A stretch of 64,000 bases of DNA from Arenimonas sp. SCN 70-307 (lineage in GTDB: Bacteria; Pseudomonadota; Gammaproteobacteria; Xanthomonadales; Xanthomonadaceae), in assembly GCF_001724815.1 (NCBI RefSeq), contig NZ_MEDO01000012.1:1-64000 (forward strand), given 5' to 3'. The notes under the pieces are model-generated. The model saw nothing but the letters and a program-made list of their open reading frames with translations. It did not search any database and was not told the DNA's origin. Below are positions 1-4,836 of this stretch, piece after piece (the stretch's first letter is position 1; every line of letters begins with the position of its first letter). Both the position numbers and the translations under genes were made by a program.

Positions 1-57
1 CTTGCCGAGCTTGATATAGAGCCGAACGGCACGTAGCCGATCCTCGTATGAATACAT
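1..57 (-). CDS. IS3-family transposase OrfA, N-terminal 19 residues (partial)
   Basis: The minus strand from 57 reads MYSYEDRLRAVRLYIKLGK before running off the window. This is the characteristic start of the helix-turn-helix OrfA protein of IS3-family transposases, which binds the element's terminal repeats. An AAGGAG ribosome binding site at 64-69 sits six bases before the ATG. The rest of OrfA and the catalytic OrfB should lie to the left. Too little is visible to say whether the element is intact or which subgroup it belongs to. Confidence 0.7.
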   Translation of the reverse strand, partial: MYSYEDRLRAVRLYIKLGK

Positions 58-138
58 GAACTACTCCTTCAAGTAGTCCAAGAAATCGTCCGCACCCCCA
101 ACCCGCGTTTGCTGGTCAATTTTCAACGCGCCTCAACA
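1..138 (-). mobile_element. IS3-type insertion sequence, one end only
   Basis: The window opens inside an insertion sequence read on the minus strand. It holds the first codons of an OrfA-type transposase, its ribosome binding site, and an outer end that probably lies near 138. The stretch 111-138, read outward on the plus strand, ends in CA, as IS3-family termini do. The matching inverted repeat lies outside the window, so the exact boundary is inferred. Confidence 0.5.
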
Positions 139-275
139 CTGTAATCCTTTCCTCGACGCCTGGCCCTCGAGCGTTCCAAAAGACCATAAATACCTAATCC
201 CACACGGCGTGTCCGCAACAAACCCTAGAGGTCGTTGCGTGAGATATGGTGACCAAGGGGTCACTAGGGGGCCTT

Positions 276-647
276 ATGAGACTTTTTCTCAGTTCAGCGG
301 CAATGGTTGCCGCCTTCTTGGTCTTGCCATCAGAGCAGGCGATCGCACACAGCGGGGGCCTGAATTCGGAGGGCTGCCACAACAACAGGAAAACAGGCGA
401 GTACCACTGCCACCGCAGCCCTGCGCCCAGACCTACAGGCGCGGGGAGTCCGGCACCTGCGAACACGGCATTCGGCGGCACGAACAACCAACCGTCCAAC
501 CGACAAACGTCCGGCCGCGCATTCCGAAACTGCGACGAGGCAAGAGCCGCTGGCGCAGCCCCGGTGAGACGCGGCGAACCAGGCTATGGGCCACACCTAG
601 ATCGAGACAACGATGGCGTAGGGTGCGAGCCCTACCGCAGAAGGTAG
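276..647 (+). CDS. Secreted YHYH/Excalibur-domain protein
   Basis: This 123-residue protein starts with a signal peptide (residues 1-24, ending in AIA before HSGG). Next is a YHYH-like Cys/His segment (about 25-46, with HSGG, CHNN and YHCH). A Pro/Gly/Asn-rich linker follows. The C-terminal Excalibur module (about 83-120) carries the calcium-loop signature DRDNDGVGCE. Excalibur domains are extracellular calcium-binding modules, so a secreted, metal-binding, envelope-related role is likely; no enzyme activity can be read. I chose the ATG at 276 because it begins the signal peptide and follows an AGGGGG stretch. An in-frame ATG at 246 would add ten residues ahead of the signal. It lies in the low-GC island beside the insertion sequence. 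Confidence 0.7.
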   Translation: MRLFLSSAAMVAAFLVLPSEQAIAHSGGLNSEGCHNNRKTGEYHCHRSPAPRPTGAGSPAPANTAFGGTNNQPSNRQTSGRAFRNCDEARAAGAAPVRRGEPGYGPHLDRDNDGVGCEPYRRR

Positions 648-749
648 GCATTCTCCCGGGACCTCCCTTCCCTGAATCGTACTGGACCGGAAAATGCGGG
701 AAGGTCAATGTCACCCAAGCAGCATTCCCACCAGTACCTAGGAGCAATT

Positions 750-1121
750 ATGTCAACCAAGAAGACCGTATTCGTTGCTTTCGCCATTGAAGATGAAAGG
801 TCGAGGGATTTCTTGAAGGGTCAGTCGCTGCTGACGAAATCACCCTTCGAGTATGTGGACATGTCCGTTAAGGAGCCCTACGACAAAGACTGGAAGGAGC
901 GCGTGAGGACGCGAATTAAGCGATCAGATGGAGTTATTGCACTGGTCAGCAAGAACTCCCTCAAGTCCTCCGGGCAGAAGTGGGAAATTGAATGCGCGCG
1001 CGAGGAAGGGAAGAAGATCTTGGGAGTCTGGGCTTACACTGACGACCGAACGACTATTGATGGAATCCGCACCGTCACTTGGACGTGGGCGAACATCCAG
1101 AACTTTATTGACAGCCTTTGA
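750..1121 (+). CDS. ThsB-like TIR-domain protein (Thoeris-type sensor/NADase)
   Basis: At 123 residues the protein is a single small TIR-like domain of the ThsB/MTH538 type. The first beta strand is [13 protein letters not shown] (about 4-16). Near 60-69 is the [10 protein letters not shown] strand, followed by KWEIECA (77-83), where E79 or E81 would be the catalytic glutamate of an NAD-consuming TIR. In Thoeris defence such proteins sense phage and make a cyclic ADP-ribose isomer that activates a partner effector. The caspase-like gene begins 17 bases downstream, so the two are probably co-transcribed. The ATG at 750 begins the domain; an upstream in-frame start at 708 would add 14 residues with no conserved look. 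NADase activity is inferred from the family. Confidence 0.78.
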
Positions 1122-1138
1122 TACGCCGGGGACAACGC

Positions 1139-2110
1139 ATGAGAAAGGCACTAGTCATAGGAATCAACTACTACGAGAAGCTCTCTGAGCTCTTCGGGTG
1201 CGTTAATGACGCGCACGAGGTTAAAAGTGTTCTGGAGAGGCACTCAGACGGCAGTGTGAACTTCTCCGTGCTGACGATGATTGCGAGCAACAGGGCCACA
1301 GCTGTCACTCGAGCAACAATGAAGGACAAAATTATCGAGCTGTTTGCCGGAGACAGCGACATTGCACTCCTCTACTTCGCAGGGCACGGCCACATCGAGG
1401 CAACTGGCGGCTATCTTTGTGGAAGCGATTGCGAGCGAGGTGACGATGGCCTTTCATTAGCAGAAGTAATAGCGATCGCCAACAAATCAAAGTCAAGAAA
1501 CAAGGTCGTTATTCTCGATAGCTGCTTCTCCGGTATTGCGGGAACTGGCGCAGATCAGCAAACGGCCGAACTTTCAGAAGGACTAACTATACTGACGGCA
1601 TCGACGAAGGATCAGTACGCATCGGAGGTCAATAACAGCGGTGTGTTTACTGAGCTCTTGGTCGACGCCCTCAACGGAGCAGCCGCAAACCTTGTCGGGG
1701 ACGTCACACCCGGCAGTGTGTACGCACACATTGATCAATCCTTGGGCCCGTGGAAACAGCGCCCCATCTTCCGAACAAACGTGAAGTCATTTGTGTCACT
1801 TCGAAAGACGACGCCGCCGATTGATATTGCTGATCTGAAAGCAATTCCAAAGCTTTTCCCAACCCCTGGCTTTGAATTCCCTCTTGACCCCAGCTTCGAG
1901 CCTGAGATGGCTGGCCGACCACAAGGAGCACAACACCCCAAGAAGGAGAACACCGAGGTCTTTGCCAGACTGCAGCGACTGAATCGCGTGAACCTTCTCA
2001 GGCCAGTTGATGCCACCCACATGTGGAATGCGGCAATGGAGAGCAAGCCATGCAAACTGACCGTTCTCGGTGAACATTACCGGCGACTGGCTGAGCAAGA
2101 GCTCATTTAG
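1139..2110 (+). CDS. Caspase-like protease (peptidase C14 family), probable TIR-activated effector
   Basis: The 323-residue protein opens with the usual metacaspase strand [12 protein letters not shown]. It carries the catalytic dyad: His83 in YFAGHGH and Cys129 in ILDSCFSG. The p20/p10-like fold fills about residues 1-225. Residues 230-323 form a separate C-terminal region, perhaps for ligand sensing or substrate choice, that I do not recognise. Caspase-like proteases next to a TIR gene are the effectors of type IV Thoeris, in which the TIR product switches on the protease and the infected cell is killed. A TTG at 1118 overlapping the TIR stop could also start the gene, but the ATG at 1139 fits the domain edge. 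There is no signal peptide, so it is cytoplasmic. Confidence 0.8.
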
Positions 2111-2130
2111 AATTATTTGGAGACGTAGCA

Positions 2131-2763
2131 TTGACCGAAAACTACATAGTCGAAACTAGGCTCTCCAAGACTCTTGAAGCGATCCATGCTGCACGCCGCG
2201 ACTTTGACATCGCTAAACAGATGATCGAGGGGGTACTCGAAGTAGATGCTGTCGACATCAACTCAAATCTTGAAGAGGCAGCTTGGACAACGGCTGTAAT
2301 TCGCTACACACGCGGCTGGAAGCTTCTGGGGTACCCCGCATCTATTCGCGCCGAGGTTCTCCGCAACCTAAATGACTCTCAGCGCGACGTCCACGCACAA
2401 ATCCTAACAATTCGAGACGCAATGTATGCCCATCATCTCGGCGTAGGCACGGGATACAGCGTAACGGCGAAAGTAGGTCCCGATTCGACAGGACTTCCGC
2501 AATTGTGGGGCGTTGGGATCCAGAGCCATCGAGTTGCCTCTCCGGGACTTGATGACGCCGCGAGGTTTCTAGAGCTCCTGACGATTACATCCAGAGTCTT
2601 CCTCGCACATGAGAATCGAACTAGCGAACTGCTGTGGGTCGAGCTTCTCGCTCTTGACCCGTCAGAGTGGATACGACTTGGACCCTACAAACCGGAATTG
2701 AACTATGGAGAAAGCTCACGTATCTATCGTCGGGAGAAAAGAAAGCGCACTCCTAAAGAATGA
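2131..2763 (+). CDS. Uncharacterised third cassette protein with HEPN-like R-X5-H motif
   Basis: The product has 210 residues, is mostly helical in appearance, and has no signal peptide or membrane segment. I do not recognise the family. A striking stretch, IRDAMYAHH (R95 to H101/H102), fits the R-X4-6-H motif of HEPN ribonucleases and resembles AbiU2-like proteins, where an R...AH motif follows a long helix. The C terminus is very basic (about 196-210). The start is a TTG at 2131, supported by GGAG at 2119-2122 with eight bases of spacing. It follows the caspase gene by 20 bases, so it probably belongs to the same transcript. It could be a toxin, a regulator of the protease, or a protease substrate. 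The HEPN assignment rests on one motif. Confidence 0.6.
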   Translation: MTENYIVETRLSKTLEAIHAARRDFDIAKQMIEGVLEVDAVDINSNLEEAAWTTAVIRYTRGWKLLGYPASIRAEVLRNLNDSQRDVHAQILTIRDAMYAHHLGVGTGYSVTAKVGPDSTGLPQLWGVGIQSHRVASPGLDDAARFLELLTITSRVFLAHENRTSELLWVELLALDPSEWIRLGPYKPELNYGESSRIYRREKRKRTPKE

Positions 2764-2831
2764 TGGGCCTATCCTTTCATGCCTTTCTGGAACTCAGTGA
2801 AACTCACCTGACGCGCAAGTGACCCGAGGCA

Positions 2832-2851
2832 AAGCGCCGTAAGTGGCTGTT
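2832..2851 (+). repeat. 20-bp direct repeat, copy 1 (element-end remnant)
   Basis: These 20 bases recur exactly at 4005-4024. Here they sit in a 13-codon open stretch reading PEAKRRKWLFDAAGF and ending at a TAG. This looks like the detached C-terminal tail of a protein rather than a gene. The other copy lies beside the tRNA scar, which suggests repeated use of one integration end. The rest of 2764-3045 holds nothing else I can support. Confidence 0.55.
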
Positions 2852-3045
2852 CGACGCCGCCGGTTTTTAGTAGCGGTCCGATTTGGAGTCCAATCCCACC
2901 AGCCCAGGAGATTGGACGTGAAGTGGCTGATTGCTCTGTCAGGAGTATTCAAGCCACACTGGATGGTCTTGGCGGCCTCATCGCGCTCGCTTTCCCGAAG
3001 TGCACTGAGCGCTAACGCTGGCTTGAGCAATAGGCATTTCCATCA

Positions 3046-3660
3046 ATGAAATCGTTTCTGACGATCTCAATTGTCGCCTCTTTCCTCGCACTGCTGTTCT
3101 CGGCAGTTACCGCGAAGCGCGGAGAGTCATTCTCGTCGAGATTCCTAACTGCTGTTTTCTGGGCGATAAGCGTGTCGGCCTTCATCGCAGTTAGCCAGGA
3201 GTTGGCGCAGCTACTTGAACTGAGCAGAAAGGACTCAGGCTACGCACGCGGGCGATTAGTTCCTTCCCCATTTTCTTTCTTTGTGGTGACTGCAACGGCA
3301 TCCCAGACCTACACCCTATGGCGACTGAGAAACTGGCTTCGGAAAACTGGAGAGGATTCGGAGCGTGAGCAACCTGATGCCCGCGCAAAAGAGGATTCGT
3401 CACCACACGCAGAAGCGAATCCGTCACACCCCCACCCAGGAGCGCGTTCAACGCAACCAATTGAAGCCGAACCCTGCCCAACCGAATTGATGCATCGCAA
3501 GTTCAACCCTGGCGGGCTCACAATTTTCCTGTTGTGCGCTTCTGGGCTCAACGCTTACGGGAGCTTCGACGTTTATGACAAGAGCCCCGGCGGGGCAATA
3601 ATTTTTCTTGTCATTTCGATTGGCTGCCTCGTTGGGGCTGTTGGCTCGTCGATTCGCTAG
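3046..3660 (+). CDS. Hypothetical inner-membrane protein
   Basis: I do not recognise this 204-residue protein. The N-terminal half has two hydrophobic helices (about 4-24 and 33-54) and a possible third around 76-92. A polar, Pro/Glu/Ser/His-rich cytoplasmic stretch spans about 100-148. Two more hydrophobic helices follow (about 157-172 and 182-200). The body is low in GC like the rest of the island, and its ATG directly follows an untranslated gap after the defence-like cassette. It may be unrelated cargo or a membrane partner; nothing in the sequence decides. Confidence 0.5.
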   Translation: MKSFLTISIVASFLALLFSAVTAKRGESFSSRFLTAVFWAISVSAFIAVSQELAQLLELSRKDSGYARGRLVPSPFSFFVVTATASQTYTLWRLRNWLRKTGEDSEREQPDARAKEDSSPHAEANPSHPHPGARSTQPIEAEPCPTELMHRKFNPGGLTIFLLCASGLNAYGSFDVYDKSPGGAIIFLVISIGCLVGAVGSSIR

Positions 3661-3728
3661 CTCCAGTCGGGTGCCCGACCCCCGGCTTTCAGGGCCTGTA
3701 GCTTATGAGCTGATTAGTGGCCAGACGT

Positions 3729-3923
3729 TCATTTCCAAAGCTTGAAAAATCCTATGAAGGCAGCGATCGACCCCAGCCCAAATAGCAGGGCGATCAACGC
3801 GTCACCCCAGTCGGTCCTACCCCTGTAGCCGTTTGCCCCCTCACCAAAATAGAGTGCGGCAAGCGCGCAACCCAAACCAACCGAAAACAGTACCCAGCGT
3901 TTGGCTGAACTAGTGGAATGCAT
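3729..3923 (-). CDS. Small two-helix membrane protein
   Basis: The 64-residue product has two hydrophobic helices (about 9-26 and 42-60) joined by a short polar loop with GYRGRTDWGD, and a lysine-containing end (FFKLWK). I do not recognise it. It is encoded opposite to the other island genes and ends 68 bases from the stop of the preceding membrane protein gene, so the two converge. Coding status rests on the clean membrane topology and the ATG. Small size leaves doubt. Confidence 0.45.
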   Translation of the reverse strand: MHSTSSAKRWVLFSVGLGCALAALYFGEGANGYRGRTDWGDALIALLFGLGSIAAFIGFFKLWK

Positions 3924-4004
3924 GTCAGTGCCACCGCCCTGGAGGTGCCGCGAGTCGCGACGACGATTGAGTCAAAATACATCAGCACCACTCCAAAAGC
4001 TGGC

Positions 4005-4024
4005 AAGCGCCGTAAGTGGCTGTT
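4005..4024 (+). repeat. 20-bp direct repeat, copy 2, next to the tRNA scar
   Basis: This is identical to 2832-2851. Here it lies in a 43-codon open frame from an ATG at 3918 to a TGA at 4047-4049. The frame reads KRRKWLF then MLDFRPV and runs into the tRNA-Phe fragment. The arrangement resembles the 3' end of an integrase gene abutting its attachment site. No integrase body is left here. Confidence 0.5.
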
Positions 4025-4045
4025 TATGTTAGATTTCCGGCCAGT

Positions 4046-4090
4046 TTGAAAATCCCCGTGTCGGGGGTTCGATTCCCTCCCCGGCCACCA
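4046..4090 (+). other. 3' fragment of tRNA-Phe (GAA): attachment-site scar at island edge
   Basis: From the anticodon loop (TTGAAAA, 4046-4052) to the CCA (4088-4090) the sequence is a good 3' half of tRNA-Phe. It has the 3' anticodon strand, a T arm with TTCGATT at 4069-4075, and the acceptor strand CCCGGCC at 4080-4086. The 5' half is missing: no D arm or 5' acceptor precedes it. Tyrosine-recombinase elements that integrate in tRNA genes leave exactly this kind of duplicate. It marks the change from island to core chromosome, and GC rises sharply right after it. Confidence 0.72.
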
Positions 4091-4170
4091 TCCCAAAAGC
4101 CACGCCCCGCCTGGGTTCCAGCCCTGCGGGGCGTTTCGCTTTATGGCGCCGGAACTTCTATCCTGCGCGG

Positions 4171-4836
4171 GTGACGACCCACGCCGACCAGATACGCCGC
4201 GACGGCTACGCCCTGCTCCGCCAGGCCATTCCCGCCGACTGGCTGGACGAACTGCGCGCGGCGTTCGACGCCAACGTAGTGCCTTCGGAGCGCTGGCCGG
4301 TGCCGCGCGGCCGCGACTGGCGGCACGCCATGCTCGACCTCGAGCCGCGGGTGCAGGCCGTTTGCCGGCTGCCGGTGCTGCTGGCGGCCGTGGGCGCCCT
4401 GGTGGGCGAGCGCTTCTTCCTCGGCCAGGTCGAGGGCCGCGAACCCCTGCCCGGCGGCGGCATGCAGGGCCTGCACCGCGACCTGTCGTCGCTGCGCCCC
4501 GGCGACACCGTCAGCGCGCTCGCCTTCTTCGACGACTACGGCCCCGCCAACGGCGCCACGCGCCTGGTGCCCGCCAGCCACCGGCCCGCGCCGGGTGAGG
4601 CGCCGCCGTCGGACGCCGACGAACCCCGCGCGCTGCAAATCGAAGGCCGCGCCGGCGACATCCTCGTGTTCGACGCCGACCTCGTGCATGCGGGCAGCCT
4701 CAACACCGGCGGCGGCCGGCGGCGCTCGATCCTGATGGGTTTCTTCGCCGAGTCTCTGTACGATGCGCTCGCGGCCACCGCCGGCCTGCGCAATGTCCGC
4801 ATGGACACCCGCGAAAGGTTCGAGCCCACGCCATGA
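4171..4836 (+). CDS. Phytanoyl-CoA dioxygenase (PhyH) family protein
   Basis: This 221-residue protein is a cupin-fold Fe(II)/2-oxoglutarate dioxygenase. The iron ligands are visible as HRD (His102, Asp104) and a distal His173 in LVHAGSLN. The arginine-rich GGGRRRSI that follows (about 181-187) probably holds the 2-oxoglutarate carboxylate. The substrate cannot be told; bacterial PhyH members act on many small metabolites. The start is GTG at 4171, and the stop overlaps the next gene by four bases (ATGA), so the two are translationally coupled. It is the first core gene after the island edge. Confidence 0.78.
   Translation: MTTHADQIRRDGYALLRQAIPADWLDELRAAFDANVVPSERWPVPRGRDWRHAMLDLEPRVQAVCRLPVLLAAVGALVGERFFLGQVEGREPLPGGGMQGLHRDLSSLRPGDTVSALAFFDDYGPANGATRLVPASHRPAPGEAPPSDADEPRALQIEGRAGDILVFDADLVHAGSLNTGGGRRRSILMGFFAESLYDALAATAGLRNVRMDTRERFEPTP

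Follow-up and report, generated by a model that had tools for sequence, protein, structure and literature searches.

A TIR-caspase gene pair of the type IV Thoeris layout on a tRNA-Phe island of Arenimonas, with a probable passenger gene downstream

Type IV Thoeris is a bacterial suicide defence against phages, and Rousset et al. 2025 is said to be its founding paper. In the available descriptions the system consists of a TIR protein and a caspase-like protease (PMC12847820, PMC13373217). The TIR makes N7-cADPR, which activates the caspase-like protease of the same operon, and the protease then degrades cellular proteins, as described in PMC12847820. There are two further described kinds of caspase system to which the locus studied here can be compared. 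In Canu, a caspase switches on a nuclease which is encoded downstream of it (PMC12799240), and in the EACC1-caspase two-gene systems the EACC1 component is described as a transmembrane protein (PMC7159879).

The window, by which we mean the whole stretch of 64,000 nucleotides that was analysed (G000:C12:1-64000), carries three ORFs in a row on the plus strand, with 17 bases between a TIR gene and a caspase gene and 20 bases between the caspase gene and a third gene (Table 1). The coordinates, strand and gaps of these genes had been given in an earlier sequence-only reading and were all found to be exact when the window was read again. We consider it highly probable that the first two genes are a two-gene type IV Thoeris-like abortive-infection cassette on a tRNA-Phe island, and that the third gene lies outside the conserved system. 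The assignment to type IV Thoeris rests on the layout and the catalytic residues, set against the published description. At the level of the genes, where the likeness is known here, the window resembles type IV Thoeris in having a TIR and a caspase-like gene in one operon layout with the catalytic residues present, and it differs in the unrelated gene that follows so closely downstream.

Table 1. Features of the window with their positions, strand and the evidence for them
Feature	Positions	Strand	Evidence and remarks
Presumed IS3-like element end, where a transposase reading begins	1..138	-	Read by eye; 88% match to contig end G000:C23:1-128
Single-domain ThsB-type TIR protein, 123 aa, ATG start	750..1121	+	Pfam PF08937, PADLOC ThsB; predicted NAD+-consuming signal maker
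Caspase-like protease effector, 323 aa, ATG start	1139..2110	+	Pfam PF00656 over residues 1-211, caspase-fold model, 39-sequence alignment
Likely HEPN-like protein, 210 aa, TTG start	2131..2763	+	Probable passenger; predicted RNase whose family has no Pfam model
Island border on one side (att), formed by a 45-bp copy of the tRNA-Phe 3' end	4046..4090	+	100% match to the 3' end of tRNA-Phe G000:C26:580-655

The TIR protein matches ThsB_TIR (Pfam: PF08937) with an E-value of 9.1e-9 and 36.1 bits, above the cut-off of 21.2, and the PADLOC model ThsB with an E-value of 4.9e-9, in agreement with the single-domain ThsB-like TIR that had been proposed. The catalytic glutamate, which the sequence-only reading had left for checking, is probably E79, as judged from an alignment in which this residue is kept in 37 of 37 distinct TIRs that are paired with a caspase.

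The caspase matches Peptidase_C14 (Pfam: PF00656) with an E-value of 1.2e-18 and 68.1 bits at a cut-off of 21.4. It is composed of a catalytic domain of about residues 1-225 and a conserved C-terminal region of about residues 226-323. The dyad of His83 and Cys129 is present at the positions proposed for it in the catalytic domain, and both residues, as well as D24 and D127, are found in all 40 distinct caspases, the window's included; C21 is found in 39 of them. In an alignment with yeast metacaspase, the GC-x-NDA and DSC motifs of the two proteins coincide. In metacaspases, pocket aspartates are linked to basic P1 residues. By motif and spacing, C21, D24 and D127 match Cys92, Asp95 and Asp211 of TbMCA2, which are described as part of a potential S1 pocket (PMC4357240), and from this correspondence cleavage after Arg or Lys is predicted. 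The fourth TbMCA2 pocket residue, Ser156, is a difference, with Ala81 apparently in its place in the caspase of the window. Among the PHROGs, the caspase matches phrog_18397 (E-value 1.4e-88), to which no function is assigned there.

We modelled the caspase with AlphaFold2 on an alignment of 39 of the 40 distinct caspases (L099 was omitted and L063 was used without its first few residues), which gave a mean pLDDT of 91 and a pTM of 0.85. The best fold matches of the model are MALT1, caspase-11 and metacaspases. For residues 226-323, with block pLDDT values of 87-97, the model shows short helices between 230 and 239 and, at 269-319, a unit of the order helix-strand-helix-strand-helix, and the positions F240, L249, P251, E254, L286, A299, L307, T308 and G311 of this region are invariant in the 39 sequences. 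As the C-terminal region is conserved across the whole family, it is not an addition. Being a fixed part of the effector, it is a candidate region for oligomerisation or for binding the signal, and we infer that it may bind the signal.

Relatives of the caspase were collected by three routes. The whole caspase was searched against 299 genomes of the order, 88 of which match at an E-value ≤ 1e-5; the check for a TIR in this set covered the window and four full-length relatives. The C-terminal 95 residues were searched against 398 genomes of the phylum and matched in seven, the own genome included, and a scan of GTDB contigs gave 38 loci with best-segment identities of 38-76%. A total of 57 loci with 48 caspase ORFs was analysed, eight of which (L012-L019) had been fetched for other reasons. 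Caspase ORFs shorter than 300 aa were excluded (L067, L100, L101, L103 and L104), and L105, from the GTDB scan, has no caspase ORF at the threshold. There are thus 43 loci with a caspase of at least 300 aa, including the window, and 40 distinct caspases among them, as L052 is the same as L094, and L091 the same as L092 and L102.

In 39 of the 43 full-length loci (38 of 42 without the window; 37 of 40 distinct caspases), the caspase gene directly follows a TIR gene of the same strand, which supports the earlier claim that the two genes have the layout of type IV Thoeris. The four full-length loci with no such TIR are L052 and L094, an identical locus whose neighbouring long ORFs have only weak matches to TIR profiles, L053, which has the most distant caspase with 31% identity to that of the window, and L085, where TIR-matching ORFs are found downstream, two of the three on the opposite strand. 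To regard the window as an ordinary example of an already known TIR-caspase kind is sound. The window is a further clear case of a widespread cassette, here riding a tRNA-Phe island.

The loci of the GTDB scan come, among others, from records titled Maribacter, Sphingobacterium, Anabaena, Staphylococcus, Collinsella, Rathayibacter, a Myxococcales and a Nomurabacteria genome; many of the records are metagenome bins, so that single taxa may be misassigned. The TIR-caspase loci L091, L092 and L102 are identical, with the same caspase and the same next gene, in records named Segetibacter koreensis and, twice on one contig, Staphylococcus equorum, so that one of these assemblies may be contaminated.

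The pair is also found on viral contigs and plasmids. A TIR is encoded upstream in 16 of 26 caspase loci on viral contigs, seven of which (L153-L159) are fragments or weak matches. In the 19 viral loci whose caspase match spans 218 residues or more at 38% identity or above, the TIR is upstream in 16 and downstream on the same strand in two, and in the remaining one, L141, TIRs lie about a kilobase off on the other strand. Among the plasmids, 52 records match the caspase at an E-value ≤ 1e-20, 29 of which are predicted to be conjugative, and an annotated TIR gene is immediately upstream in all three of these 52 records that were examined.

Caspases of similar identity to that of the window are found with very different TIRs. 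In L073, L076 and L070 the caspase is 65, 64 and 64% identical to that of the window and the TIR 81, 80 and 80%, and in L068, L069 and L080, with caspase identities of 65, 64 and 63%, the TIR is only 21, 20 and 21% identical. Despite this low identity, the TIR of L068 matches ThsB_TIR with an E-value of 1.8e-18. One effector type is thus combined with different TIR subfamilies, and the sequence comparison suggests that the TIR partner is swapped while the caspase stays, in an apparent exchange of the sensor. What the survey adds is an effector with a fixed C-terminal region and a sensor that seems to be exchanged around it. The very different TIRs beside caspases of nearly equal identity mean that a common signal is assumed here.

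There are also loci with extra TIR genes, namely L063 and L097 with two TIRs upstream, and L088 and L089 with a TIR both upstream and downstream. Among the close neighbours of the caspase in the surveyed loci, a second TIR is the sole recurrent addition. Eight of the 43 loci, the window included, have an ORF of 80 aa or more on the same strand no further than 60 bases past the caspase, and the other 35 have no close same-strand gene downstream. Besides the third gene of the window, these downstream genes are a TIR (L088, L089), a subtilase (L063), a DUF4062-NACHT-FGE-sulfatase protein (L077) and, in L081, L083 and L093, ORFs that could not be placed. When up to two downstream ORFs from each locus were compared all-against-all by BLASTP, nothing apart from TIRs recurred, identical or near-identical copies of a locus set aside. 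The subtilase gene (Pfam: PF00082; L063:8258-9448) begins eight bases past the caspase in a TIR-TIR-caspase locus. In L077, an ORF of 1497 aa with DUF4062, NACHT and FGE-sulfatase domains (L077:7023-11516) begins 47 bases past the caspase, and DUF4062 has been termed a TIR-like NADase (PMC13174449).

The third gene of the window begins with a TTG at position 2131, with a GGAG eight bases upstream. Its protein has no match in Pfam, PADLOC or NCBIfam at E-values up to 1, none was found in plasmids, and the best match among the PHROGs has an E-value of 0.45. Relatives are sparse: counting the own genome each time, there are five in the 299 genomes of the order (E ≤ 1e-3), four in 369 genomes of the class and seven in 398 genomes of the phylum (both E ≤ 1e-4). 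In the eight members that were aligned, D24, Y59, L80, H88, R95, A100 and H101 are invariant. All eight therefore have R95-x5-H101, with D, N or H directly following R95 in each.

These features can be compared to the HEPN superfamily, which is described as being marked by an Rx4-6H motif located where helix 3 ends, in most cases with N, D or H after the R, and by a further acidic residue (PMC3710099). A model of the third protein built on the eight sequences (mean pLDDT 77) is mainly helical, with long helices at 10-37, 45-64, 82-96 and 140-174 and also 70-78, and it places R95 at a helix end and H101 in a loop. The protein shares with HEPN RNases the R-x5-H, modelled at a helix end, the D, N or H after the R, the invariant upstream acid D24 and a mainly helical model, and differs from them in a beta-hairpin that separates the motif helix from the last long helix. 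A Foldseek search of the model against the PDB gave nothing at E ≤ 0.001, with the HEPN structure 2hsb at rank 33 (E-value 1.1), and none of the Pfam HEPN profiles matched any of the eight members at E-values up to 1. Taken together, we regard the third protein as quite likely HEPN-like and as a probable RNase.

The third gene was not found in the other 42 full-length caspase loci or in the 26 loci on viral contigs, and the 15 loci that were fetched for its relatives (3.7-17 kb each, with L175 at only 3.7 kb) gave no hit to a TIR or a caspase. Since it accompanies the pair in the window only (one of 43 loci) and none of the 15 loci of its relatives gave such a hit, it is most likely an unrelated passenger of the cassette. 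As the main reading, we therefore rejected that the third gene is a component of the system. The sequence-only reading had proposed an extended form of type IV Thoeris on account of this gene and of the C-terminal region of the caspase; the former proved not to be conserved with TIR-caspase pairs and the latter to be family-wide. Our literature search, for which most subscription papers were out of reach, found no paper in which type IV Thoeris is described with a third, accessory gene.

The own genome carries a second, distant copy of the third gene on another contig (G000:C19, L016:9357-10049). Its neighbours there are an Xre/MbcA-like gene and what appears to be an integrase, both of which were judged from their counterparts in L015. 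In L015 and L017, from two further genomes of the genus, as in L016 from the own genome, the relative of the third gene adjoins an Xre/MbcA antitoxin-like protein. The antitoxin-like protein was compared with PF09722 in L015 only, with an E-value of 4.6e-4, which is under the cut-off. The copy on contig C19 is possibly part of a HEPN toxin-antitoxin arrangement.

A passenger is not the only reading of the third gene. It could be a functional local addition, with a HEPN RNase as a second effector that is perhaps switched on by caspase cleavage. In such a three-gene Thoeris the TIR signal would act on the caspase and the caspase on the RNase, by way of a recent, lineage-specific addition that is unique in our survey, and the outcome would be a combined destruction of protein and RNA. 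The short gap, the common strand, the gene's own GGAG and the HEPN-like motif of its product agree with this reading, as do two low-confidence loops in the model of the third protein (103-109 and 185-193). In addition, positions 600-3100 contain no promoter-like site, and neither gap has a site resembling a terminator. The promoter scan used the sigma-70 consensus, for which shuffled sequences lead one to expect 1.7 sites, so that a count of zero means little. Canu offers a precedent, as its caspase switches on a downstream nuclease, and in the window, too, a predicted nuclease is encoded downstream of a caspase; for Canu, no TIR component is named in the available part of its description (PMC12799240), and in the window the pairing of the caspase with the third gene does not recur elsewhere in the survey. 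The survey counts against an addition that works with the pair, with a single locus of 43 that has it, no pair seen in the 15 fetched loci of its relatives, 35 loci without a close same-strand gene downstream and seven with different genes there. We hold such a three-gene system to be improbable.

Two other readings concern the pair itself. The NCBIfam model caspase_w_EACC1 (NF047832) matches the caspase domain with an E-value of 2.7e-28, so the pair might be a conflict system of the EACC1 type and not Thoeris, with which it would share a related caspase domain. The match reaches 98.9 bits, below the curated cut-off of 140, and the 5' gene of the window encodes a ThsB-type TIR and not a transmembrane EACC1. 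We rejected the EACC1-caspase system on both grounds and see hardly any probability left for it. The TIR might also control the caspase by depleting NAD+ or by contact between the two proteins, with no diffusible cyclic signal, which would fit with similar caspases being accompanied by TIRs of very different sequence. The published type IV systems use N7-cADPR, as far as they are described in PMC12847820, and a control of this kind is unlikely to apply here.

For the two-gene type IV Thoeris-like cassette, the preferred reading, we propose a mechanism that builds on the observed pair; published work on type IV Thoeris and on metacaspases supplies the signal, how it binds the caspase, the preferred cleavage site and the defence. 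The TIR would sense phage infection and convert NAD+ into a cyclic ADP-ribose isomer. The isomer would then activate the caspase-like protease, possibly via the conserved C-terminal region, and the activated protease would cleave cellular proteins, probably after basic residues. This cleavage would stop the cell before phage release.

The low-GC island in which the genes had been placed is real, with a GC content of 0.53-0.56 in bases 1-4000 compared to 0.62-0.77 in the remaining kilobases of the window, and one of its borders is the copy of the tRNA-Phe 3' end (Table 1). The same genome has the intact tRNA-Phe on a different contig (G000:C26:580-655). Past its 3' end lies a truncated tyrosine recombinase, of which the C-terminal part is left (Pfam: PF00589; E-value 2.3e-26, covering positions 44-170 of the 172 in the profile). 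Beyond this integrase remnant, where the contig ends, there is sequence resembling an IS3-like end. The left end of the window is itself a contig end, located inside an element end of the same kind. At both places we take the element to be IS3-like, by eye. The natural reading is an island that spans the contig gap in the order tRNA-Phe, broken integrase, IS, cargo and tRNA-Phe copy.

The island junction recurs in a genome of the same genus (G207:C9), where the 44 bases before the repeat are 98% identical and other ORFs adjoin; from the repeat onward, 1155 bases are 92% identical to the window. When the island DNA was compared with 26 genomes of the genus, with at most four candidates scored per genome, the three-gene stretch was unmatched. 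We infer, from these sequences, that the cassette was probably acquired locally.

There are also smaller elements on the island. An exact 20-bp direct repeat is present at 2832-2851 and 4005-4024 of the window, with the second copy just before the tRNA-Phe border. The repeat is found beside the tRNA-Phe border in G207, G075 and G264 as well, with 0-1 mismatches, which suggests an integrase site or an earlier island border. An element of about 73 bases at 2851-2923 is found, whole or in part and with 77-91% identity, in several related genomes and on contig C14 of the own genome. Rfam gave no match at gathering thresholds in window positions 1-4300. Two more ORFs of the island, at 3046-3660 and 3729-3923, look membrane-protein-like by eye, the former with no Pfam match above its cut-off. 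Upstream of the TIR, positions 246-647 encode a protein with YHYH and Excalibur domains. In G264, DNA relatives of this stretch lie no more than a few hundred bases from a copy of the tRNA-Phe 3' end, and in G207 the two share a contig.
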